Positions 16,505 to 34,988 of a stretch of DNA of 64,000 nt are shown piece by piece. Position numbers and translations under genes: made by a program. The DNA lies in contig NZ_VOHA01000004.1 in the NCBI RefSeq assembly GCF_007859315.1, positions 310,001 to 374,000 on the forward strand, in the 5' to 3' direction. Under the pieces are notes generated by a model that worked only from the letters and a program-made list of their open reading frames with translations, had not been told where the DNA came from and did no database searches. This DNA is from Reyranella sp. CPCC 100927 (GTDB lineage Bacteria > Pseudomonadota > Alphaproteobacteria > Reyranellales > Reyranellaceae). The stretch's first letter is position 1. Every line of letters starts with the position of its first letter.

Positions 16505-17239
16505 CTACTGGCAGTCGAAGCGGAAGAAGCGGGCGGCTGTACCCTCCTGGAGTTGCGCCAGGCGCAGCGTCTTGGTCTGCAGGTCAAGGTGCCATTGGCC
16601 GTCGCGGGCATCCACCGCCTTGCCCCAGGCCAGCGTGCCGCCGAAGCGCTCACCCTGGGGGCCCATCATCTGCCAGATCATGGCCGGTGCGACCGGACCA
16701 GCCGATTCGGGTGCCGATGGCTTGACGGTGATCGTCACCTGCATCGTTTCGCGTGGCGGATAGCTCTGGTGCGTTACCGCGCCGTCCGGCTCGACTTTGA
16801 CAATCACGGCGCCGGCTGCCGTACAGGTGAACGCGAGGCTGCCGGCCTCTGTTGGCGGTGGTGATGGCGGCGGTGACGACGATTGCGGCAGTGGCACAGC
16901 GGTGGCCGCTGGTGCTGTCGCCTCGGCGTCCGCTTTCAGGAAGCGGCCGGAGACCCAGCCTTCGACGCTCTTGTAGCGGATGCGGCACCAGCGCTGCCGT
17001 GGGGTCTCGCCGCGACAGCCCAGGTTGACCAAGCCGCGGGCATCGTGCGGCACCGTGCCCACGGGTTCGCCGGCGCTCGAGGGCTGATCGCGCACAGTCA
17101 GTGTCTTGCCGGCGCTGACACCGGAAACTGTCCAGCGCTCCGGGTTGGTGCCCTGGGCCACGGCCGGCACCGGCGCGCTGGCGGCGACCGCCGCAAGCAC
17201 GCAAGAAATCAGGGCGATCGGGAAGGGACGATACCGCAT
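16505..17239 (-). CDS. Secreted SH3-domain protein, paralogue A
   Basis: 244 residues. Signal peptide (MRYRPFPIALISCVLAAVAASAPVPAVAQ), then an SH3b-like domain (KTLTVRDQPSSAGEPVGTVPHDARGLVNLGC...RWCRIRYKSVEGWVSGRFL). A Pro/Ser/Ala-rich linker (PLPQSSSPPPSPPPTE) follows, then a C-terminal domain of about 105 residues with no family I know, ending ARFFRFDCQ. It is clearly paralogous to the protein at 21850-22740. Both genes share GGTAATGACG 5 bases before the ATG, which supports this start. Periplasmic role unknown; SH3b domains often bind cell wall. Confidence 0.75.
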   Translation of the reverse strand: MRYRPFPIALISCVLAAVAASAPVPAVAQGTNPERWTVSGVSAGKTLTVRDQPSSAGEPVGTVPHDARGLVNLGCRGETPRQRWCRIRYKSVEGWVSGRFLKADAEATAPAATAVPLPQSSSPPPSPPPTEAGSLAFTCTAAGAVIVKVEPDGAVTHQSYPPRETMQVTITVKPSAPESAGPVAPAMIWQMMGPQGERFGGTLAWGKAVDARDGQWHLDLQTKTLRLAQLQEGTAARFFRFDCQ

Positions 17240-24004: not shown

Positions 24005-24183
24005 AGTGGCGGCCCTTAAGAAATACTAGAGCGGCACGTCAGAAATTCTTGGTTGTCCGGCATTGACGTCTTCACGAGATTGCCTGTCGTCGCGACGCGC
24101 GGCGGCAATCGTTCGGTCGTGCCCCTCATTTGCTCGCGATCTGGGGCGATCTGGCGCGGTGTGATTGTGAGGAGAGTGCGAGC

Positions 24184-25056
24184 ATGTCCAGTGGAGCAAC
24201 AGGCGCGGTTGTCGCGGTGCGCACGCCGGTGGGGGCGGCGACTGCCGGCCGCCAGCCACGGGTTGGTGTGCGCACGCTGGCACTGAGCCGGCGTGCGCTG
24301 ATCCTGATCTCGTGGATCGTGCCGTTTGTCGTGGTCGGCCTGTGGGAGATCCTGGCCCGTTCCGGTGTGCTGTCGGCGCACGTGCTGCCAGCACCCAGCA
24401 AGGTGCTGGGCACGGCTGTCGGCCTCGTTCGTGATGGCAAACTGATCGGCGACATGGGCATCAGCCTGCTGCGGGCCGCCACGGGCTTTGCGATCGGTGG
24501 CAGCATCGGTTTTGCGCTCGGTACGCTGGTCGGCTTCTCACGGCTGGCCGAAGCGTTTCTCGACCGCACCATCCAGATGATCCGTGCCATTCCGTTTCTC
24601 GCCATCCTGCCGCTGGTCATCGTGTGGTTCGGTGTCGACGAGGGCGGCAAGATCTTCCTCGTTTCGCTGGGCGTGATGTTCCCGATCTACATCAACACCG
24701 TTCTGGGTATTCGCCAGGTCGATCCCAAGCTGGTCGAACTGGGTCGCGTCGCCGGCCTTAGCGATTGGGGTGTGGTGCGCCATATCATCCTGCCCGGGGC
24801 GCTGCCGTCCATACTGGCCGGTATCCGTTACGCGCTGGCGATTTCATGGCTTGCCCTTGTGGTGGCCGAGACGATCGCCACCAGCTCCGGCATCGGGTTC
24901 CTGGCCATGGATGCGCGTGAGTTCCTGCGCATCGACGTGATCGTGCTGGCGATCGTGATTTATGCCGGAGTCGGCGTGCTGTCCGATGCCATCGCCCGCG
25001 CACTCGAGCGCCGGCTGTTGTCATGGCACCCCAACTATGCAGGAGCCAAGCGGTGA
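24184..25056 (+). CDS. ABC transporter permease (SsuC/TauC-like)
   Basis: 290 residues, about six membrane helices. The N-terminal segment ALILISWIVPFVVVGLWEILARSGVLSAHVLPAPSKV and the coupling loop GRVAGLSDWGVVRHIILPGALPSILAGIRYALAISW are typical of the nitrate/sulfonate/taurine permease family. The ATG at 24184 follows GAGGAG. The stop overlaps the ATPase GTG start. Inner-membrane pore for the system encoded with the ATPase and binding protein downstream. Confidence 0.9.
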   Translation: MSSGATGAVVAVRTPVGAATAGRQPRVGVRTLALSRRALILISWIVPFVVVGLWEILARSGVLSAHVLPAPSKVLGTAVGLVRDGKLIGDMGISLLRAATGFAIGGSIGFALGTLVGFSRLAEAFLDRTIQMIRAIPFLAILPLVIVWFGVDEGGKIFLVSLGVMFPIYINTVLGIRQVDPKLVELGRVAGLSDWGVVRHIILPGALPSILAGIRYALAISWLALVVAETIATSSGIGFLAMDAREFLRIDVIVLAIVIYAGVGVLSDAIARALERRLLSWHPNYAGAKR

Positions 25057-25802
25057 GTGCTGTCGACATAACTGCTGATGCACCCGCGGTCGTCGTGAGC
25101 GGTCTGCGGCGCGCCTATGGCGAGCGCGTGGTGATCGACGGGCTTGACCTGCGCATCCACCGTGGTGAGTTCGTAGCACTGCTGGGCGAAAGCGGCTGTG
25201 GCAAGACCACTTTGCTGCGGGCGCTCGCCGGCCTCGACGCCGTCGACAGCGGCCAGATCGATGGACCGGCGCAGCCGGCTGTCGTGTTCCAGGAACACCG
25301 CCTGCTGCCGTGGTACTCGCTCTGGCGCAATGTCGCGCTGGGGTTGGATGACACGGCTGGACGCGCCGCGGCCCAGGCGGCGCTCAGCGAGGTTGGCCTC
25401 GGCGATCGTCTGGAAGACTGGCCGCGTAACCTGTCGGGTGGCCAGGCCCAGCGCGTGGCGCTGGCCCGTGCGCTGGTACGCGAGCCGCGCCTGTTGCTGC
25501 TGGACGAGCCATTCGCTGCGCTCGATGCGCTGACGCGGATCCGGATGCATGATCTGGTCAAGCAGCTGGTGGCGACGCATCGGCCGGGTGTGCTGCTGGT
25601 CACGCATGACGTCGATGAGGCCATCGCCTTGGCGCATCGCGCGCTGGTCATGCGCGACGGTGTGATCGCCCGCGAGTATGCGGTGTCCCGCGCCGCCAAT
25701 ACCAATCGCTCGCATCCCGAGGCTGTCGCTTTGCGCGATACCCTGCTGGCCGACCTCGGTGTTGCCTCGGGTGATGCACACACGCGGGCACGGGCTGCCT
25801 GA
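25053..25802 (+). CDS. ABC transporter ATP-binding protein (SsuB-like)
   Basis: 249 residues: Walker A GESGCGKT, Q-loop VVFQEHRLLPWYSLWRNVALGL, signature LSGGQAQR, Walker B LLLLDEPFAALDALTR and switch LLVTHDVDEA. This is the SsuB/TauB pattern. GTG start at 25053 in the GTGA overlap with the permease, with GGAG upstream. It energises import of a sulfonate-type ligand. Confidence 0.92.
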   Translation: MSAVDITADAPAVVVSGLRRAYGERVVIDGLDLRIHRGEFVALLGESGCGKTTLLRALAGLDAVDSGQIDGPAQPAVVFQEHRLLPWYSLWRNVALGLDDTAGRAAAQAALSEVGLGDRLEDWPRNLSGGQAQRVALARALVREPRLLLLDEPFAALDALTRIRMHDLVKQLVATHRPGVLLVTHDVDEAIALAHRALVMRDGVIAREYAVSRAANTNRSHPEAVALRDTLLADLGVASGDAHTRARAA

Positions 25803-25867
25803 TGACAGGGATGACGGGGCGCACGGGCAGGGCGCTCCGATCTCGTGAAAAATTCAAGGGGTGTTTC

Positions 25868-26869
25868 ATGTCTGACTTCGCGCTGTCTCGCCGTCGTTTC
25901 CTCGCCACGTCAGCCGTTGCCGCTGGCGGCGCCGGCGCCTTCACCGCGCAGGCCCAGACGCCGCCGGCCAAGGGCAAAAGCCGGACCACCGATACCGTAC
26001 GCCTGACCTATGGTCGTGGTGGGTTGCCACTGCAGGCCAAGGAGCGCGGCGCGTTCGAGAAGATCCTGGCGCAGGACGGCATCAAGGTGCAGTGGATCGG
26101 GCCGTTCCCCAACCATGCACCGTCATTGCAGGCGGTGACAGGCGGCAGTGCCGATTTCGGGTTCTGGGGCAGCTCGACGCCGGCGCTGGCCGCCATCATC
26201 GCCGGCTCGCCACTGATCTTCACGCATTTTGCGCTCTACGAGCCGCGCAGCACGGCGATCATCGCCAAGGACGATTCCGGTATCCACGCGGTCAAGGACC
26301 TTGTCGGCAAGTCGGTGGCGGTGAACCGGTCGGGCCTCGGCGAGTTCCTGCTGGTGGCGGCACTCGAGAAGCACGGCATCGACCGCAAGAAGGTGAAGTT
26401 CGTCTATCTCAACCCGCCTGACGCCGGGCCGGCTTTCGCGCAGGGCAAGATCGATGCCTGGTCGATGTGGTCGCCGGGCGTCGACATCGCGCGCACCGAG
26501 TACAAGGCCCACGACATCTTCTTCGAAGGCAGGGACCTCGATTTCTTCATCGACTTCTCATCGCTGCTCACCACCCGCAAGTTCAGCGAGGAGAACGCCG
26601 ACCTCGTGCGCGCCGTGATTGCTGCCTACGCCGCGGAGGCGAAATGGGTGACCGACAACCCGTTCGAGGCCGAGGTGATCGCCCAGAAAGAGGCCAACTA
26701 CAGCGACAAGGTGCGCGACCATCTGGTATCATACAAGCGGCGCTACCAACTTTATGACGTGTACGACGAGAAGTTCCTGAAGGACTTCCAGTTCGCCGCC
26801 GACTGGCTGTCGGAACGCAACATCCTGCCGCAGAAGGTCAAGGTCACCGACTACCTCGCCCGGCTCTGA
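25868..26869 (+). CDS. ABC transporter substrate-binding protein (SsuA-like), Tat-exported
   Basis: 333 residues. The N-terminus SRRRFLATSAVAAGGAGAF is a twin-arginine signal, so the protein may be exported folded. The mature part matches aliphatic-sulfonate binding proteins: RLTYGRGGLPLQAKERGAFEKIL, GSADFGFWGSSTPALAAII, KSVAVNRSGLGEFLLVAALEKHGI and WSMWSPGVDIA. ATG at 25868 after AGGGG. Last gene of the monooxygenase-importer unit. Confidence 0.9.
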   Translation: MSDFALSRRRFLATSAVAAGGAGAFTAQAQTPPAKGKSRTTDTVRLTYGRGGLPLQAKERGAFEKILAQDGIKVQWIGPFPNHAPSLQAVTGGSADFGFWGSSTPALAAIIAGSPLIFTHFALYEPRSTAIIAKDDSGIHAVKDLVGKSVAVNRSGLGEFLLVAALEKHGIDRKKVKFVYLNPPDAGPAFAQGKIDAWSMWSPGVDIARTEYKAHDIFFEGRDLDFFIDFSSLLTTRKFSEENADLVRAVIAAYAAEAKWVTDNPFEAEVIAQKEANYSDKVRDHLVSYKRRYQLYDVYDEKFLKDFQFAADWLSERNILPQKVKVTDYLARL

Positions 26870-26898: not shown

Positions 26899-27408
26899 TT
26901 ACTGGATGTACTTGAGCGGAAGGCTGGTCGTATATTTGATCTGATCCAGCGCATAGCTCGAGCGAATGCGCGCGATGCCGGGAATGCCGGTGATATGGTC
27001 CAGCAGGAACTGGCGATAGGTCGGCAGGTCGGGCAGTACCATGTGCAGCAGATAGTCAGCATCAGATCCCGTGATCAGGTAGCACTCGATCACCTCCGGC
27101 AGGTCGACAACGGCAGCTTCGAAGGCCTTCAGGGAGGCTTCGTTCTGCCGCTCCAGCGAGATGATCGTGAAGATGTTCAGGCGCAGCCCGAGCGCCTGCG
27201 GATCGAGCAGGGCGACCGTGCGCCGAATCGGTCCTTCCTCATGCAAGCGGTGGACGCGGCGCAAGCATGGCGACGGCGACAAGCCGATATGCTCCGCCAA
27301 CTCCGCATTGGTCTCTGCCGCGTTGCGCTGCAGCCGCTCCAGAATCTTGCGATCGAATTCGTCCAGCCCGTTTCCGAGCGGGTCGCGTTTGGGCTTACCT
27401 GAAAGCAT
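26899..27408 (-). CDS. Lrp/AsnC family transcriptional regulator
   Basis: 169 residues. N-terminal helix-turn-helix (LDEFDRKILERLQRNAAETNAELAEHIGLSPSPCLRRVHRLHEEGPIRRTVALLD) and C-terminal RAM/AsnC ligand domain (DLPEVIECYLITGSDADYLLHMVLPDLPTYRQFLLDHI). Such proteins sense amino acids. It is divergent from the operon at 27634-32712, and the 225-base gap contains palindromes, so it most likely controls that operon. Confidence 0.92.
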   Translation of the reverse strand: MLSGKPKRDPLGNGLDEFDRKILERLQRNAAETNAELAEHIGLSPSPCLRRVHRLHEEGPIRRTVALLDPQALGLRLNIFTIISLERQNEASLKAFEAAVVDLPEVIECYLITGSDADYLLHMVLPDLPTYRQFLLDHITGIPGIARIRSSYALDQIKYTTSLPLKYIQ

Positions 27409-27535
27409 CAGTACCTCGCAATTTTGGTCTCACACGACGCCTCGTCGCGACACAGGATTGCGCTCCGTGCACCATTTGAAGGTCAGAACGCACGGATTAT
27501 TCTAGAGCCATATCATATAATTGCTGCAACCAAAA

Positions 27536-27553
27536 GATGCATTTCGATGCATC
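27536..27553. promoter_or_regulatory. Palindrome GATGCAT-TTCG-ATGCATC, candidate Lrp site
   Basis: Perfect 7-base arms (27536-27542, 27547-27553) with a TTCG centre lie midway between the Lrp gene and the operon start at 27634. An ATCAAC-GG-GTTGAT dyad lies about 60 bases further on, just before the ribosome site. In DNA these are candidate operators. In RNA the first would be a stable UUCG tetraloop hairpin in the 5' leader, so a post-transcriptional role is also possible. Confidence 0.45.
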
Positions 27554-27633
27554 GTGGTTCGGCATTTCGCAACCAACCGACGCAATTCGGTGCCGATTCA
27601 TCATGACGATCAACGGGTTGATGAGGATTCGCT

Positions 27634-28356
27634 ATGACAACTCTTGCGAGCAGACTGCAGGCCATCCGCAGCCACCGTGCCGTCAACAATCCTTTCTATG
27701 ATGCCTGGACGTCCAAACGTTTTACCGGAGAGCAGCTTCGGGTGTTCGCCGCGAATTACGGGTCCTGGGTGCGCTCGTTTCCTGACAGCCTGGCGGCCCT
27801 GGTTCAGGCGACGTCGGATATAGAAGCCAAAGTCGAGTACAGCAAAACGCTGCACTCGGAACTGGGTTACGGCAATCCAACCAAGGCGCACTCCGTTCTG
27901 CTCGACGCTTTCCTGATCGCGCTGGCCAAACGCCTGGGCGTTGAGGATGACGTCAGACAGGCACTGGCCGGCTCCGGCGCGCTGCCATCCACGCAAGCCC
28001 TGATCGATGGCGAACTGCGGCTCTATGGGCACGCCGATCGGCGGCTGGCGGTCGGTGCGCAGCTTGCGCTGGAGTGGCAGGCGTACACCATGCTGCGCAA
28101 GCTCTACGAAGGGGCACGCAACTACGCGCAGCTATGGCAAGACGAGGACGAGTTCCACGAGGACTGTGAATATTTCTATGCGCATATCGGAGCAGCGGAG
28201 AAGGATCACAAGGTCGAGTCACTGCGTGGCGCCGAGAAATACATGTCGCGTGAGGGTGATCTCGACCACGTCCTGGCGGGTTACGACGAACATCTGACGC
28301 TCATTGCCGATCTGTGGTTCGGCATTGCCGACAAGGCCGGCGTGTATCGGCATTGA
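27634..28356 (+). CDS. Haem-oxygenase-like diiron protein (PqqC/TenA fold, HDO family)
   Basis: 240-residue helical protein of the iron-containing redox enzyme (haem-oxygenase-like) family. Candidate metal ligands: Glu76 (LHSELGYG), His86 (TKAHSVLLDAF), Glu147 (LALEWQAY), His184 (YFYAHIGAAEKDH), Glu189 or Asp191, and His192. Related HDO enzymes oxidise or fragment amino acids, fatty acids or hydrazine precursors with O2. It is the first gene of a five-gene operon with two transporters, an amidohydrolase and a LeuA-type regulatory domain. An amino-acid-like substrate fits the divergent Lrp gene (inference). Confidence 0.75.
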   Translation: MTTLASRLQAIRSHRAVNNPFYDAWTSKRFTGEQLRVFAANYGSWVRSFPDSLAALVQATSDIEAKVEYSKTLHSELGYGNPTKAHSVLLDAFLIALAKRLGVEDDVRQALAGSGALPSTQALIDGELRLYGHADRRLAVGAQLALEWQAYTMLRKLYEGARNYAQLWQDEDEFHEDCEYFYAHIGAAEKDHKVESLRGAEKYMSREGDLDHVLAGYDEHLTLIADLWFGIADKAGVYRH

Positions 28357-28376
28357 GTTCAGAGCCAACTCCCTCC

Positions 28377-29333
28377 ATGACCGGGCCGACGCCGTTTTAC
28401 GTCGGCCCGCTGTTGGTGGGGGGTGCCGCCATTCTCTGGGGCACGGTCGGCATCGCCTCCAAGACGCTCTACGGTCTCGACAACATCAGCCCGCTCGCTC
28501 TGGGCTTCTTTCGTTTGGCGATATCCGTGCCGTTGCTGCTGGTGTGGCGCTGGCGTGCTTTCGAGAAATGGCCGTTCGGCTTTCACGGCCGGGATGCCGT
28601 CATTCTCGTTTCGATCGGTGTCGCCATGGCAGCATATCAGATCTGCTATTTTCAAGCTGTTGCCGAGATTGGCGTCGTCCTTACGACGTTCATGACGATC
28701 TGTTCCGCACCGGTCCTGATCGCGGCGCTGTCGATCGTCGTTCTGGGGGAGCGGCTGACGGGCCCGGCCGCGATCGCTCTGTGTCTTGGCTTGGCCGGCA
28801 CAGCGCTGCTGATCGACGTTCGCGGGGATCGGCTCGTGAATGCCAACACGGCCGGCATGGCGTGGGCGGCAGGTTCTGCGTTGGCGTACTCGCTCTTCGT
28901 GTTGCTGAGCCGGGCACTGGCCAGACACGATCCGGCGAAGATCATCGTCCTGGCCTTTGGCATGGGCGCGCTGGCGCTCCTGCCATTCGCGGCCGGCGCC
29001 GGATTGGCGCTCGACTGGTCCGCGTCAGCCTGGGGACTGGTCTTCTATATCGGCCTTATACCGACGGCGGCAGCGTACATGCTCTACTTTCGCGGCATGC
29101 GCGACACGCGCGCCATGTCGGCTGGGATCATTGCCTTGCTGGAGCCGATGACGGCCACGGTACTGGCACTTCTGCTGTTCGACGAGCGTGTCAGCAGCGC
29201 CGGTGTTGCGGGCATCGGTCTGCTCATCGTGGCCATGCTGATTCTTGCCATCATGCGCTTCAAGCAACCGGCACCGGTCCAAGAACCGGCGGCGGCCGCA
29301 AAGACACCGTCCCGATCGATCGAGCAGCAATGA
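28377..29333 (+). CDS. EamA/DMT family transporter
   Basis: 318 residues, ten membrane helices in two EamA repeats: GGAAILWGTVGIASKTLYG opens the first and MAWAAGSALAYSLFVLLSRALA the second, with GLIPTAAAYMLYFRGM and ALLEPMTATVLALLLFDE typical of drug/metabolite exporters. ATG at 28377; an in-frame TTG at 28353 overlaps the stop of the diiron gene and is an alternative. It probably exports the product or a toxic intermediate of the operon. Confidence 0.87.
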   Translation: MTGPTPFYVGPLLVGGAAILWGTVGIASKTLYGLDNISPLALGFFRLAISVPLLLVWRWRAFEKWPFGFHGRDAVILVSIGVAMAAYQICYFQAVAEIGVVLTTFMTICSAPVLIAALSIVVLGERLTGPAAIALCLGLAGTALLIDVRGDRLVNANTAGMAWAAGSALAYSLFVLLSRALARHDPAKIIVLAFGMGALALLPFAAGAGLALDWSASAWGLVFYIGLIPTAAAYMLYFRGMRDTRAMSAGIIALLEPMTATVLALLLFDERVSSAGVAGIGLLIVAMLILAIMRFKQPAPVQEPAAAAKTPSRSIEQQ

Positions 29334-30577
29334 TGTCGCACCGTATCCTGATCCGGAACGCACGCCTGCTGGACGTCCGTTGGGAGGCTCCCATTCCCAA
29401 CGGTGACGTGCTGATCGAGGATGGCGTCATCCGCGAGATATCGCATCGACCGCTCTCCGCCGGCAATGGCGCCGTCATCGACCTCGGTCGGCGGACGCTG
29501 ATGCCTGGCCTGATCGATGCGCATGTCCATTGCGTTGCGACAACGGTCGATCTCGGGCGCAATGCATGTCTGCCGCATACGCAGGTTGCCCTGTCTGCCG
29601 CCAAAATTCTCAAAGGGATGCTGGGCCGTGGTTTTACCACGGTGCGCGATGCCGGTGGCGCCGATTGGCCGATGGTGCAGGCGGTCGAAACCGGTCTCAT
29701 CGAGGGACCACGTCTATTCATTTCCGGACGGGCGCTGAGCCAGACAGGCGGCCACGGCGATTTTCGCGGCCGACAGGTGGGCGGCGAGCAGGGCTGTTTG
29801 TGCTGCCAGTCGTTGGGCAACATTGCGCGGATATGCGATGGGGTCGACGCCGTGCGCGTGGCAGCGCGCGACGAACTGCGCAAGGGCGCGCACCAGATCA
29901 AGGTGATGGCCTCTGGTGGCGTCGCATCGCCAACCGATCCGATCGACGGCGTTCAGTATTCCCAGGACGAATTGCAGGCGGTCGTCGACGAGGCGCGATC
30001 GGCGAACACGTACGTCATGGCGCATGCCTATACCGGGCGCGCCATAACACGTGCCATCGAAAGCGGCGTTCGAACGATCGAGCACGGCAACCTGATCGAC
30101 GCGGACGCGGCGCGGATCGTTCGTGAACGCGGCGCTTTTGTGGTGCCGACGCTGGTGACTTACGATGCCATCGCGCGTCGCGGCGCGGCACTGGGCTTTC
30201 CCGAGGCCAGTATCGCCAAGCTCGACGATGTCCGGCATGCCGGGCAGGGCGCCATCGATATGCTGCGGAGCCTTGGCGTGAAGATGGGCTTCGGGACCGA
30301 TCTTCTGGGCGACCTCCACACTGAACAGAATCGCGAGTTCACGCTGCGTGCCGAAGTGTTGCCGGCACGCGACATCATCGCCTCCGCCACCGTCGTGAAT
30401 GCCGAGATCCTCGGTGTCGGGGCAAAGCTCGGTGTGCTGGAAGTCGGCGCCCATGCCGACCTGATCGGCGTCAGCGGTGATCCGCTCGAGGACATCACCG
30501 TGCTGTCCCGGCCCAACGAGACGCTCGCACTCATCATGCGGGGTGGCCGGATCATCAAGAACCAATGCAGCGGATGA
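29330..30577 (+). CDS. Amidohydrolase (Xaa-Pro/Xaa-Arg dipeptidase-like, metal-dependent)
   Basis: 415 residues. All ligands of the amidohydrolase superfamily are present: His65 and His67 (DAHVHC), carboxylated Lys191 (IKVMASGG), His232 (MAHAY), His252 (IEHGN) and Asp324 (GTDLLG). SQTGGHGDF supplies a further conserved His of the dipeptidase/imidazolonepropionase-like branch. ATG at 29330 overlaps the transporter stop (ATGA). It would hydrolyse an N-acyl amino acid, dipeptide or cyclic amide. Cytoplasmic. Confidence 0.9.
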   Translation: MMSHRILIRNARLLDVRWEAPIPNGDVLIEDGVIREISHRPLSAGNGAVIDLGRRTLMPGLIDAHVHCVATTVDLGRNACLPHTQVALSAAKILKGMLGRGFTTVRDAGGADWPMVQAVETGLIEGPRLFISGRALSQTGGHGDFRGRQVGGEQGCLCCQSLGNIARICDGVDAVRVAARDELRKGAHQIKVMASGGVASPTDPIDGVQYSQDELQAVVDEARSANTYVMAHAYTGRAITRAIESGVRTIEHGNLIDADAARIVRERGAFVVPTLVTYDAIARRGAALGFPEASIAKLDDVRHAGQGAIDMLRSLGVKMGFGTDLLGDLHTEQNREFTLRAEVLPARDIIASATVVNAEILGVGAKLGVLEVGAHADLIGVSGDPLEDITVLSRPNETLALIMRGGRIIKNQCSG

Positions 30578-30593
30578 TGCAGGGAGGCATGCC

Positions 30594-32018
30594 GTGACAG
30601 CCATTTCAAGTCGCCTGGAGCGATTACCGTTCTCACGCCCCCATCGGCGTTTGCTCGCCATGGGGGGACTTGGATACAGCTTCGATGCCATGGATGGCGC
30701 GGTGATTGCCTTCGTGCTGCCGATCCTGACGGCGATGTGGTCGTTGACCAGTGTCGAGACGGGCGTCCTCGCCAGCGCCACCTACATCGGATACCTCTTT
30801 GGCTCGTTCGCGGCGGGAACAGCGGGCGACCTGATCGGACGGCGCGTGGTGATGATGTGGGCACTGGCGATATATTCGCTGGCGTCGCTGGCCAGCGCCT
30901 TTGCCGAGTCCTGGTCGTCATTCTTCTGGCTGAGAGTGATCGCCGGCGTCGGCATCGGGGCGGAAAGTTCGATTATCGCGCCATACCTGGCCGAGTTCGT
31001 TGCGGCACGCTACCGCGGCCGCTTTCTGGGCGCGCTGGCCGGCTTCTTCTCGTTTGGCTATGTTGCCGCCGCCTTGCTGGGCTATGCGCTGGTTCCCGCG
31101 GCGCCGTGGGGTTGGCAGTTGGTCCTGGTGATCACCGCATTGCCCATCGGCATGCTGCTCTGGTGGCGTCGCTCGCTGCCGGAGTCGCCGCGCTGGCTGG
31201 AGATACGTGGCCGCCATGCCGAAGCGGCCGCGGTGGTCGATAAGCTGGAGGCTGAGACACGCCGCGCCGGCGATCAGCCGTCGAGCGAGCCGCCGCAACC
31301 GGCCACCGTCGACACGTCCGCGGATGCATCGCCCGGTGTGCGGCCCGCATCCATCATGACCAACCTGGCCGCCTTGTGGTCGGCGGGACTGGCGCGCGTC
31401 ACGGCGATGATGTGGGTCACTTGGGCCGTGTTCATCTTTTCGTACTACAGCTTCTTCACCTGGATCCCCAGCCTGCTCGTGCAGAGTGGGCTCACGGTGA
31501 CGCGCAGCTTCACCTATGCGCTTGCCATCTATTGCGCCCAGATCCCCGGATACTTCTCAGGTGCCTATCTCAACGAGCGCATCGGGCGGCGCGCGACGAT
31601 CGTGACGGGCATGCTTCTGGGCGCGTTGTCGGCTTTGGCACTGTCATTTGCCAGATCGGATGCCCAGGTGACCATTTCCGGCGTCCTGCTGTCGTTGTTC
31701 ATGAACATGGCGGCTGCCGGTCTCTATGCCTACACGCCCGAGGTCTTTCCAACCTTTGTGCGAGCGACCGGCACCGGTACCGCATCATCGATCGGTCGCA
31801 TCGGTGCAATATCGGCGCCGATCTTTGTCGGATTCATCTACCCGCTTTACGGGTTTGCCGGCGTTTTTGGCATGACGACGGCTCTCCTGACCATCGGCGC
31901 CTTGGCGATTCTGCTGTTCGGACCGAAGACGTTGGGCAAACCGCTGGAGGAGATCGAGCAGGAGGAACTCTCAGCAGATCCGAAAGGCGTGTCGTCCGGC
32001 GTCGGCAAAGTGGCGTGA
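30594..32018 (+). CDS. MFS transporter (sugar/organic-acid porter type)
   Basis: 474 residues, 12 membrane helices. GTAGDLIGRRVVMMWALAIYS is the helix 2-3 motif, LPESPRWLEIRGR the mid-protein porter motif, and YLNERIGRRATIVTGM its repeat in the second half. A 60-residue hydrophilic loop lies between the halves. GTG start behind GGGAGG. Its place between the amidohydrolase and the LeuA-type domain suggests uptake of the substrate (inference). Confidence 0.88.
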   Translation: MTAISSRLERLPFSRPHRRLLAMGGLGYSFDAMDGAVIAFVLPILTAMWSLTSVETGVLASATYIGYLFGSFAAGTAGDLIGRRVVMMWALAIYSLASLASAFAESWSSFFWLRVIAGVGIGAESSIIAPYLAEFVAARYRGRFLGALAGFFSFGYVAAALLGYALVPAAPWGWQLVLVITALPIGMLLWWRRSLPESPRWLEIRGRHAEAAAVVDKLEAETRRAGDQPSSEPPQPATVDTSADASPGVRPASIMTNLAALWSAGLARVTAMMWVTWAVFIFSYYSFFTWIPSLLVQSGLTVTRSFTYALAIYCAQIPGYFSGAYLNERIGRRATIVTGMLLGALSALALSFARSDAQVTISGVLLSLFMNMAAAGLYAYTPEVFPTFVRATGTGTASSIGRIGAISAPIFVGFIYPLYGFAGVFGMTTALLTIGALAILLFGPKTLGKPLEEIEQEELSADPKGVSSGVGKVA

Positions 32019-32025
32019 GGTGGCG

Positions 32026-32712
32026 ATGGTCAACACATCAGAACAAAACAGCGAAGCCGGTGATGATGATGTGAAACGCCGGTGTGCAGGCGGCGACAAC
32101 CCATCGAGTCTGAGGCGCGTGCTCGACCGGATCGGTGTCGGTTTGCGGCCGGACGATGTCACCAGGCTTTTGAGCCTGATCAGGGTGCGCGAGGCCGAGG
32201 GCCGCGACTATGACGTGGCCGACGCCTCGCTGGAACTTCTGGCGCGTCGCGAATTGCGCGTGGTGTCCGACTACTTCATGCTGCACAGCTTCCGGGTGAT
32301 GACCGAACGGCGGTGGAACAGCGGGGGCGAACCCTTCACTGTCTCGGAGGCGACGGTGAAGATCGAGGTTGCCGGGCAGCGCGTGATCGGCGTCAGCGAG
32401 GGCAGTGGACCCGTTCACGCGATCGACGCGGCGCTGCGAAAGGCGTTGCTGCCGTACTATGACGCGCTGACGGACATGATCCTCACCGATTTCAGGGTCG
32501 GCATCGTCGATTCGAGAGATGGTGCCGCTGCCGTCACACGTGTTCTTGTCGAGAGCGTCGATGGCGCCGGTAACCGCTGGACGACGGTGGGTATCTCGCC
32601 CAACGTCATCGACGCCTCGTTCGAGGCGCTGCACGACGCCATCCTCTACAAGCTGTCGCGCGACAATGTAGGGCCGGCCGAAGCATCGGATCAGCGCTTG
32701 AGCCGCGCATAG
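32026..32712 (+). CDS. Free-standing LeuA/CimA regulatory (LeuA_dimer) domain protein
   Basis: 228 residues. It matches the C-terminal third of citramalate synthase and 2-isopropylmalate synthase: a linker-like helix (LRRVLDRIGVGL...EAEGRDYDVADASLELLARR), then ATVKIEVAGQRVIGVSEGSGPVHAIDAALRKALL, ILTDFRVGIVDSRDGAAAVTRVLVESVD and GNRWTTVGISPNVIDASFEALHDAILYKL. No catalytic TIM barrel is encoded here. In the full enzymes this part binds leucine or isoleucine and dimerises. It starts 8 bases after the MFS stop. Its stop region overlaps the convergent CbbO-like gene by 22 bases. Confidence 0.85.
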   Translation: MVNTSEQNSEAGDDDVKRRCAGGDNPSSLRRVLDRIGVGLRPDDVTRLLSLIRVREAEGRDYDVADASLELLARRELRVVSDYFMLHSFRVMTERRWNSGGEPFTVSEATVKIEVAGQRVIGVSEGSGPVHAIDAALRKALLPYYDALTDMILTDFRVGIVDSRDGAAAVTRVLVESVDGAGNRWTTVGISPNVIDASFEALHDAILYKLSRDNVGPAEASDQRLSRA

Positions 32713-34988
32713 AGTTGCATGAGCTGCGAGGGCAGGGCGACGATGTGCGGGACGCGCAGCGCATATCGCGGGCCGAAGATGCGATCGAGATGCACGCCAT
32801 CACCCACGCCGAAGGCGAATACGTCCAGGCCCGTGGCACGCAAAGCCTGCGTGGCGCGGCGGGCATCCTCGACCAGGTAGTCCGCATCGAAGATATCGAT
32901 ATCGGCCGGCTCGCCATCGGTCAGTACCAGCAGCACGCGCCGAAACGCACGGCGGGTGGTGAGGCATGCCCCGGCGTGACGCATGGCGGCGCCCAGCCGC
33001 GTGGAGAAGCCACCCCGCGCGCCGGCCAGCCGGGCGCGTACCGGTAGATCGAACGGCTCGTCAAAGTCCTTGATCGGCGTGTAGAAAACCTTGTGCCTCC
33101 CGTCGGAGCAGAACCCGTGGACGGCGAGCGCGTCGCCGGCGACATCGATGGCGCTGGCGATGACTTCGGCAGTGTCCTTCTCGGCCATCAAGGCGGTGTG
33201 GCCATCGCCGTCGGCGTCGTTGGTTGATTCCGAGAGATCGAGCAGCAACAACAGCGCCAGGTCGCGGGGCCCAGGGATGTGGCGCAGGTAGACCCGATGA
33301 TCCAGCGGCTGGCGGGCCCGGCGATTGATGACGGCAGCGATGCAGGCATCGATGTCGAGGTTTTCACCGTCGCTGCGGCGCTTCTCGCGGATGCGCCGGC
33401 CGATCGATGCGGCACGGGCGAGCGCGTCGGCGCGACGTGCCACGTCATCATTCGCCGCCGGTGACGGTGCCAATACGCCCGCCGGTGCGGGCGGCACCTC
33501 GACAATGGTCGTCCAGTCCGAGCGGTCGCGTGCCAGCACATGGTCCCATTCGGGGTAGGTTGCGACCGGAATACCCTCCATGCTGGCGGTCGCGGCCGCG
33601 CGCGTGCGCCCCACATCGTCGGGCTCCTGTGCTTGATCCGGTGTCGGATCGGGGGCAGGCTCTTCACGGCGCTCGATGCGCGCCGTGTCGACCATCAGGG
33701 CGATGTCCTCGATGGCCGCGTCGGGCGCATCGGGAAAATCCCACAGCCCCGTGTTGTCATCGCGATAGACCGGCTCGACGATATGGGTACGGGGATTGAA
33801 CTGCACGCGCATCTGGCCCAGGTCGTTGCCCAGCAGGCCACCCAAGCTGCGGCTGATCTCCGCGCGGTGCCACTGGTCCTGTGCCTGAGTAAACAAGGTG
33901 CGGCCCTTTACGACCCAGCCGTGCTCGTCGTCATAGGCGGGATCAAAGAGCGCACGCGCCAGCCGTGCCATCAACACAGGCGCCGTACCGCCTTGCGGGG
34001 ATGCCACGTGAAAGGGGTTCCAGAAATGCCGCAGGCCTGGCATGGCGCGCATGGCCAACGCCTCGACCCGCGCGTCCTCGATCAGGGAGACGAGGACGAC
34101 CTGCAGGGGCTTCAGCGTGCCGATGGCAAAGCGATGGCGCGTATGGGTGAGATGCGCACCCAGATGGGCACCGGCGGCGCGGTACAGTGCCGCGACCGTA
34201 TCGGCAGGTGCGCCCGCGTATCGCTCCGGGAAGCGCAGCAGCGTGCCGGCAAAAGACGTGCGGCGCTGAGGTGCTGCGCCGGGCGAGAGTGGGGCAGGCC
34301 GAATCGGCACCCGCAGACCCCAGAGCGCCGTCATTTGCGCGGCGAGGCGAGGTTCCAGGCAGCGAAAGTCCGATATTGCATCGCCCCGCGCCAGCATCTG
34401 CTGTGACAGTGGGTCGTCGAGCGAGAAGTAAGCGCGACGGCGGCTGCGATCTTCGGCCGTCGCACGCAGGCCGCTCATCATCCAGGCGTTGAAGCCGTCG
34501 ATATCGACGACCGCTAGCAGGTGTTCGAGCCGCGGTGCCAGGAGCGCGACGGTGTCTGGTGCGTCGCGTGACAGCCGTTCCAGCGAGGCCAGCAGTCGGG
34601 TGACATCCTGCGAATCGCCGGCGCGCCGGATCCAGGCCGGCAAGGTCGCCAAAAGGTATCGCGCGGCTGAACCGCCCGCCTCGCGACCGATTGCGGCGAT
34701 GGAGCGGCCGGCCATGGCCAGTTGCGTGACAGGACGTTCGTGCGGCCATGTTTCGGAGAGTCGCAGGAATGCCAACAGGGTGGGCTTGCCGAGATTGCTC
34801 TCGACCAGGCCAAGCAAGGCCTCTTCCCAGGCGCCGTGCTCAAGGGCGCCGCCGCGCGCGTCCAGCGATCGTTCAGCGGCTTCGTGGGCGCGAGCAAGAT
34901 CGGGACGACTGTCGAATAGTGCCGTGATGCGACGCGCGGCGCGTACGCCGCTCAATGAGGCAATGCCCGCGGTGCTCCGTCGCGTCAT
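32691..34988 (-). CDS. CbbO/NorD-like protein with C-terminal von Willebrand factor A domain
   Basis: 765 residues. The last 220 residues form a VWA domain with the MIDAS sequence DLSES ([14 protein letters not shown]), a further Thr/Asp site and [14 protein letters not shown]. The N-terminal 450 residues are helical and typical of CbbO/NorD. These proteins act as adaptors for CbbQ-type AAA+ ATPases that remodel or activate metalloenzymes such as Rubisco or NO reductase. It overlaps the CbbQ-like gene by ATGA. The client is unknown here; no Rubisco or nor genes are in the window. Confidence 0.85.

Follow-up and report, generated by a model that had tools for sequence, protein, structure and literature searches.

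Gene layout, recurrence and history of the cluster

We analyzed a 64,000-nucleotide stretch of the Reyranella sp. CPCC 100927 genome (contig NZ_VOHA01000004.1, positions 310,001 to 374,000; hereafter the window), in which the gene for a haem-oxygenase-like dimetal oxidase/oxygenase (HDO) is clustered with genes for two transporters, an amidohydrolase (AHS) and a free-standing domain. Window genes were assigned to families with Pfam and NCBIfam models. Six genes were found at the predicted place, five of them co-directional on the forward strand and one, an Lrp gene, divergent on the reverse strand:

26899..27408, strand -, Lrp/AsnC-family regulator, divergent (PF01037 69.9 bits, PF13404 62.1 bits, above cut-offs)
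27409..27633, no strand, divergent intergenic region of 225 bp between the Lrp and HDO genes
27536-27553, inverted repeat GATGCAT-4nt-ATGCATC within the Lrp-HDO intergenic region
27634..28356, strand +, HDO (putative ligands E76, H86, E147, H184, E189, H192)
28377..29333, strand +, EamA/DMT-family transporter, presumed exporter (PF00892 111.7 bits)
29330..30577, strand +, AHS, cog1228 prolidase-like, Xaa-Pro / N-acyl-Pro (PDB 3mkv 460 bits, 410 residues)
30594..32018, strand +, MFS transporter, presumed importer, near the aromatic acid/H+ symport subfamily (PF07690 149 bits)
32020..32712, strand +, free-standing LeuA-dimer domain of the citramalate-synthase (CimA) type, no TIM barrel (PF08502 85.9 bits)

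A preliminary description of the locus had claimed a tight five-gene unit at 27634-32712 with a divergent Lrp gene, and the spacings of -4 to +20 confirmed it. The successive gaps between the five forward genes are +20, -4, +16 and +1 (the last becomes +7 if the start is at ATG 32026), the DMT and AHS genes overlapping by 4 bases, and the five are presumably co-transcribed. A sigma-70 scan of the region revealed no promoter-like site. The helix-turn-helix (62.1 bits) and ligand domains (69.9 bits) of the Lrp protein pass their cut-offs, whereas its score against the leucine-responsive Lrp equivalog is 117.2 vs a cut-off of 233. The DMT protein exceeds the PF00892 gathering score (111.7 vs 28.2 bits), and the MFS protein falls below the TIGR00895 cut-off for aromatic acid/H+ symporters (250.2 vs 418.55 bits).

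An HDO scan over the contigs of 84,980 species, which detects close relatives only, yielded 10 loci (L003-L012). The neighbourhoods of 13 HDO relatives (L003-L014 and L019) were compared by tblastn, some on short contigs (6.3 kb for L004; 462 bases upstream for L007). Only one of the 13, L003 from Rhizobium sp. LCM 4573, carries AHS, MFS and DMT homologues beside the HDO. Its gene order, HDO, TetR, AHS, MFS, DMT, is permuted relative to the window, and the identities between the two loci are 66% (HDO), 51% (AHS), 57% (MFS) and 55.7% (DMT). This second side-by-side occurrence suggests that the set in the window is more than a chance assembly. The L003 neighbourhood contains no Lrp homologue (E 1e-4) and no lone LeuA-domain gene, a TetR gene lying inside the cluster instead, and the one match to the CimA domain in that genome is in a 546-aa frame. 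At L009, an extra MFS match (32% identity) lies about 8 kb from the HDO.

Co-occurrence of all five families in order, proposed earlier as a check, was seen in 0 of the 13 compared loci. Conservation of neighbours in relatives, whose absence had been named as refuting the system idea, was seen in L003 for the HDO, EamA, AHS and MFS genes and failed for the Lrp and LeuA-domain genes. The operon idea thus appears good for those four genes, while the other two are not conserved.

The HDO itself is sparse in every genome sample searched. In these overlapping samples, matches were found in 1 of 146 relatives (the window's own genome; E 1e-10), 2 of 385 genomes of the class (its own and G161; E 1e-30), 1 of 398 genomes of the phylum (its own; E 1e-25), 1 of 346 genomes of the L003 family (that of L003; E 1e-25) and 1 of 190 genomes of the L009 family (that of L009; E 1e-30). 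More distant members were found on six plasmid records, and no HDO relative was found on viral contigs. A widespread alphaproteobacterial operon was therefore rejected, one of the two class genomes being the window's own. The gene set is rare among bacteria; a single distant relative has four of the six genes in one place.

Forcing the window and L003 AHS together in the AHS tree costs 92.8 log-likelihood units (p-AU 1e-5). Since the HDOs pair (see below) but the AHS do not, AHS of different lineages stand beside paired HDOs, and a single AHS-HDO union inherited unchanged in both genomes was rejected at the same p-AU of 1e-5. AHS was either recruited twice or replaced once after one union. Either course would suggest that the genes are functionally linked, double recruitment more so than replacement, with a chance neighbourhood as a less likely alternative. 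The two HDO-linked MFS pair in 0% of bootstraps of an unresolved MFS tree, and no match to the window DMT was found on plasmids at 1e-40. In G001, a relative without the HDO, the match to the window ends at 17178 and resumes exactly at 32691; where the window has 15.5 kb, G001 has 1.7 kb of other sequence, and this G001 piece gives one more match, to 21.8-22.6 kb of the window. The G+C content of the HDO gene is 60.2% vs 63.6-67.9% in four flanking genes. The gap in G001 and the lower G+C are compatible with acquisition of the block and are not proof of it.

Two further features flank the cluster. A sulfonate-type ABC transporter (permease, ATPase and TAT-signal NMT1 binding protein) lies at 24130-26869, convergent with the Lrp gene, and no homologue of it was found beside the HDO of L003. 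On the other side, the 3' end of a reverse-strand gene (32691-34988) overlaps the 3' end of the LeuA-domain gene by 22 bp; this gene matches G001 as two adjacent pieces.

The prolidase-like amidohydrolase and its MFS partner

The best solved homologues of the AHS are the cog1228 prolidases Sgx9260b/c (PDB 3MKV, 459.9 bits; 3FEQ/3N2C, 455.7 bits), which match it over nearly the full length and in the catalytic residues; the next group scores 183 bits. Unlike these prolidases, the window AHS is linked to an oxygenase and an exporter. Residues H65, H67, H142, K191, H232, Y234, H252 and D324 are invariant in five aligned homologues. Following the residue list and spacing in PMC10781821, this set would comprise the metal ligands (four His, Lys and Asp), the oxyanion His and the carboxylate-binding Tyr. 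A review states that the 3mkv and 3feq prolidases cleave Xaa-Pro dipeptides and N-acyl-prolines (PMC11511702). Imino-acid (proline-like) conjugates form the narrower substrate class predicted for the AHS. The family originally proposed, amidohydrolases cutting dipeptides or N-acyl amino acids, was thus retained and specified as closest to 3mkv and 3feq/3n2c.

The cluster might instead assimilate or detoxify an environmental N-acyl or amide compound, the freed acid not being proline-like and the HDO detoxifying or degrading it. The MFS comes closest to the aromatic acid/H+ symporter subfamily without reaching its cut-off, the solved hydrolase relatives include ochratoxinase (150 bits), and described relatives include N-acyl-amino-acid acylases. 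However, the closest solved homologues are prolidases by a wide margin (460 vs 183 bits) and hydroxyproline genes recur near this AHS family, so we consider such a role quite improbable.

Part of the hydroxyproline link came from a class survey, in which 38 of 318 genomes held an AHS relative at E 1e-90 or better. Twenty AHS regions were fetched from 18 genomes of the survey, some cut by contig ends, and none contained an MFS, DMT, HDO or LeuA homologue at 1e-8. Hydroxyproline epimerase was present in five (L054, L063, L068, L069 and, as an edge fragment, L066), four of which also held a DapA-family gene. The same epimerase queries found nothing in the window or in HDO loci L003, L009-L014 and L019. 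The window's host genome encodes two more prolidase-like amidohydrolases (contig C1, 815073 and 833948; L066 and L070); the region fetched for one of them ends in a fragment of hydroxyproline epimerase about 8 kb away.

Relatives of the MFS were found at 1e-60 on 18 plasmid records, with up to 63% identity to Burkholderiaceae MFS beside the same AHS family. Six of these plasmid regions (Burkholderiaceae, Pantoea) were opened. AHS lies at most 0.6 kb from MFS in five of them, and in the sixth, L077 from B. cenocepacia, the two are about 9 kb apart in one cluster with a hydroxyproline epimerase, an FAD oxidoreductase and a DapA-family gene. The Burkholderiaceae pairs (L074-L076, L078) resemble the window in having the same two families adjacent, at 53-55% (AHS) and 58-63% (MFS) identity. 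In contrast to the window, these pairs and the hydroxyproline-catabolic regions hold no HDO, DMT or LeuA-domain gene at E 1e-8. The AHS-MFS pair therefore also occurs without an HDO.

These regions bear on a further possibility, namely that a ready-made AHS-MFS uptake pair stands beside an HDO-DMT pair in one transcription unit with no common substrate. AHS and MFS occur without HDO in all six opened plasmid regions, neither the HDO-linked AHS nor, in its unresolved tree, the HDO-linked MFS (0% of bootstraps) form pairs, and the four-gene core is rare. On the other hand, all four members stand together in two lineages in permuted order, and their spacing in the window is tight, including the 4-base DMT/AHS overlap. 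On balance, a loose neighbourhood of this kind seems doubtful to us.

The HDO and its relatives

The window HDO has the seven-helix haem-oxygenase-like fold. E76, H86, E147, H184, E189 and H192 are invariant in 12 of 12 aligned HDO sequences and align with BesC residues, giving a putative ligand set of three His and three carboxylates. The third helix has the form H-x4-E-x2-H in all 13 subfamily members, whereas BesC and the B. glumae and Pantoea relatives have H-x3-E-x2-H; the Vibrio relative showed neither form. The window HDO is 24% identical to BesC over 211 residues and scores below the NCBIfam cut-offs for the BesC equivalog (43.7 vs 500 bits) and the CADD/pABA synthase subfamily (44 vs 200 bits). 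Membership in the PolF subfamily was considered unlikely, there being no sequence match to PolF among the matches listed. Its gene partners are unlike those of BesC, CADD/pABA synthase, HrmI, FlcD and PolF, and no characterised member of its subfamily was found.

The HDO tree pairs the window protein with that of L003 (support 89/97), and the two form one branch side in 100% of 200 bootstrap trees, counted against rows of other named groups. The rows linked to proline hydroxylase (L009, L010, L011) also group (91/68), and those linked to non-ribosomal peptide synthetases (NRPS) are not one strict group (2 changes). Neighbours of these relatives were typed by Pfam in part. A proline-hydroxylase-like Fe/2OG enzyme adjoins the HDO in Burkholderia sp. 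Leaf177, Bradyrhizobium semiaridum and Ca. Burkholderia humilis (L009-L011). The L010 enzyme matches L-proline cis-4-hydroxylase 4p7w strongly (276 bits) and that of L009 more weakly (127 bits); the L011 enzyme, typed by its 73% identity to that of L009, is like the latter about 31% identical to that of L010. Five acidobacterial HDO loci contain NRPS genes, identified by Pfam (L004) or by similarity to L004, together with aminotransferases in four of the five and a halogenase-family gene in L006. Their adenylation codes, read by motif with positions set by eye, are DAFWLGGTF in L004 and D(V/I)QHMGHV(V/I/M) in L005, L006 and L008; further modules differ.

Several other neighbours were observed. 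On a plasmid of Streptomyces sp. NBC_01717 (L013, 4830-15707), an HDO relative lies with LysE, DAP decarboxylase, aminotransferase, short nitroreductase, MFS, methyltransferase and isochorismatase-family genes and two ATP-grasp ligases, a set resembling a peptide-type biosynthetic cluster. In L019 (G161, C258), the neighbours of the distant HDO are MFS and DUF1989 genes and ATP-grasp genes of glutathione-synthetase-like and L-amino-acid-ligase-like kinds, and an ABC transporter of the branched-chain amino acid type is close by. A conserved protein of about 390 aa adjoins the HDO and proline-hydroxylase-like genes in L009 (11707-12879) and L011 (11643-12926, two frames); the L009 copy has no Pfam match at E 5. 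Small proteins 78% identical to each other lie near the HDO-NRPS clusters of two Acidobacteria (L008, 10887-11234; L006, 12454-12801), and that of L008 has a tRNA_bind domain by Pfam. In Pantoea (L023), the EamA gene that adjoins a distant HDO is not closely related to the window DMT.

Validated HDOs number about a dozen, in a large and mostly uncharacterised superfamily, according to PMC13108848. AetD, UndA, HrmI, PolF and MboA have the substrate as a ligand at Fe1 (PMC13185094), so that a free amino or imino acid is a usual kind of HDO ligand. The mangotoxin mbo cluster, as described in PMC13185094, is like the window locus a small operon with an HDO (MboA) on an amino-acid/peptide substrate; it has ATP-grasp ligases, whereas the five window genes include no ligase but a presumed importer and a hydrolase. 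Among the papers and passages listed by searches of open-licence literature, none described an HDO operon that includes a prolidase.

The free CimA-type domain and a proposed imino-acid module

The lone domain matches TIGR00977 (citramalate synthase) at positions 353-522 with 159.6 bits, far above the 2-isopropylmalate synthase models (at most 30 bits), and is therefore a CimA-type C-terminal piece. The families named in the preliminary description agreed with Pfam and NCBIfam except here, where a LeuA-type domain proper had been proposed. The domain passes the LeuA_dimer gathering score (PF08502, 85.9 vs 24.9 bits) and stays below the TIGR00977 cut-off for a whole citramalate synthase (450), the catalytic barrel being absent. 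It resembles the C-terminal regulatory domain of CimA in sequence but is free-standing; the C-terminus of the genome's own full-length CimA (contig C9, 537-aa frame) is 61% identical to it over 186 residues.

Among 190 class genomes, 111 domain matches were found in 109 genomes. Only the match in the window is clearly free-standing, in a count that leaves aside three frames of 337-440 aa. Free LeuA domains as a common pattern were rejected, the next short frame (G188, 245 aa) being the second half of a split CimA, and a search of the open-licence literature on free LeuA domains found nothing. Feedback sensing by this domain, as first proposed, lacks comparative support, the domain being absent from the L003 cluster. 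The Lrp gene and the free domain are probably local additions with a regulatory role; that the domain is a sensor or a CimA partner is a guess.

We propose, with a probability of roughly 40%, that the four core genes form a module for the processing of imino acids. The MFS would bring in a proline-type compound in amidated form (an Xaa-Pro dipeptide or a molecule resembling an N-acyl-proline), and the AHS would free the cyclic imino acid. The HDO, whose step and substrate we infer from its gene neighbours, would bind the imino acid at its two-iron centre and oxidise it with O2 (desaturation, N-oxygenation or C-C cleavage), and the EamA protein would export the product. The HDO-TetR-AHS-MFS-DMT cluster of Rhizobium sp. 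LCM 4573, the prolidase likeness and the hydroxyproline and proline-hydroxylase neighbours argue for this module. The import-hydrolysis-oxidation-export order suggested earlier would fit the four genes that recur in this second lineage, where the LeuA-domain and Lrp genes are absent.

Several observations weigh against an imino-acid module. The four-gene core occurs elsewhere in only 1 of 10 scan loci and 1 of 13 compared loci. The L009 genome encodes four relatives of the AHS, but not close to the HDO gene. Of the five hydroxyproline-linked AHS regions, L063, L066 and L068 belong to the same family as the window organism. The window AHS shares a fork (85/89, open) with the MFS-linked rows; L077 falls within this fork, whereas the five hydroxyproline-linked AHS fall outside it. 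No epimerase was found in five MFS-linked plasmid regions (L074-L076, L078, L079). The adenylation codes give mixed hints, being presumably valine-like in L004, partly proline-like in L005, L006 and L008, and other in other modules. The free CimA domain would rather suggest branched-chain amino acids, and among the papers and passages listed by the open-licence literature searches there was no HDO with activity on proline. Hydrolase relatives also act on other N-acyl amino acids, as does PmAcy, which is 33% identical to 3MKV (PMC10781821).

Alternatively, the HDO may itself make a proline-like acid in the manner of PolF, with Ile or Val as the precursor of an azetidine or dehydro amino acid. 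The DMT would then export the product, AHS and MFS would recover or disarm its dipeptides, and Lrp and the CimA domain would sense branched-chain supply. The CimA type of the lone domain, the Lrp-family regulator and the valine-like NRPS code of L004 are consistent with this, and an imino-acid product would also account for the prolidase and proline-hydroxylase neighbours. PolF converts L-Ile and L-Val to azetidine acids (PMC12614342). We nevertheless regard a PolF-like role as unlikely.

In its furthest form, the imino-acid module would be a new HDO pathway of import, deconjugation, oxidation and export, acting on a free cyclic imino acid from a dedicated prolidase, with a detached CimA domain working in trans as a sensor or by retuning the cell's own CimA; this full picture is improbable at present. 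HDOs are a source of unusual amino-acid chemistry, and for this HDO subfamily as a whole the gene partners described here point to cyclic imino acids as a substrate class that can be tested; this extends to the branch linked to proline hydroxylases and perhaps to those linked to NRPS. If it is functional, the free CimA regulatory domain would be a case of an allosteric domain that acts apart from its enzyme.

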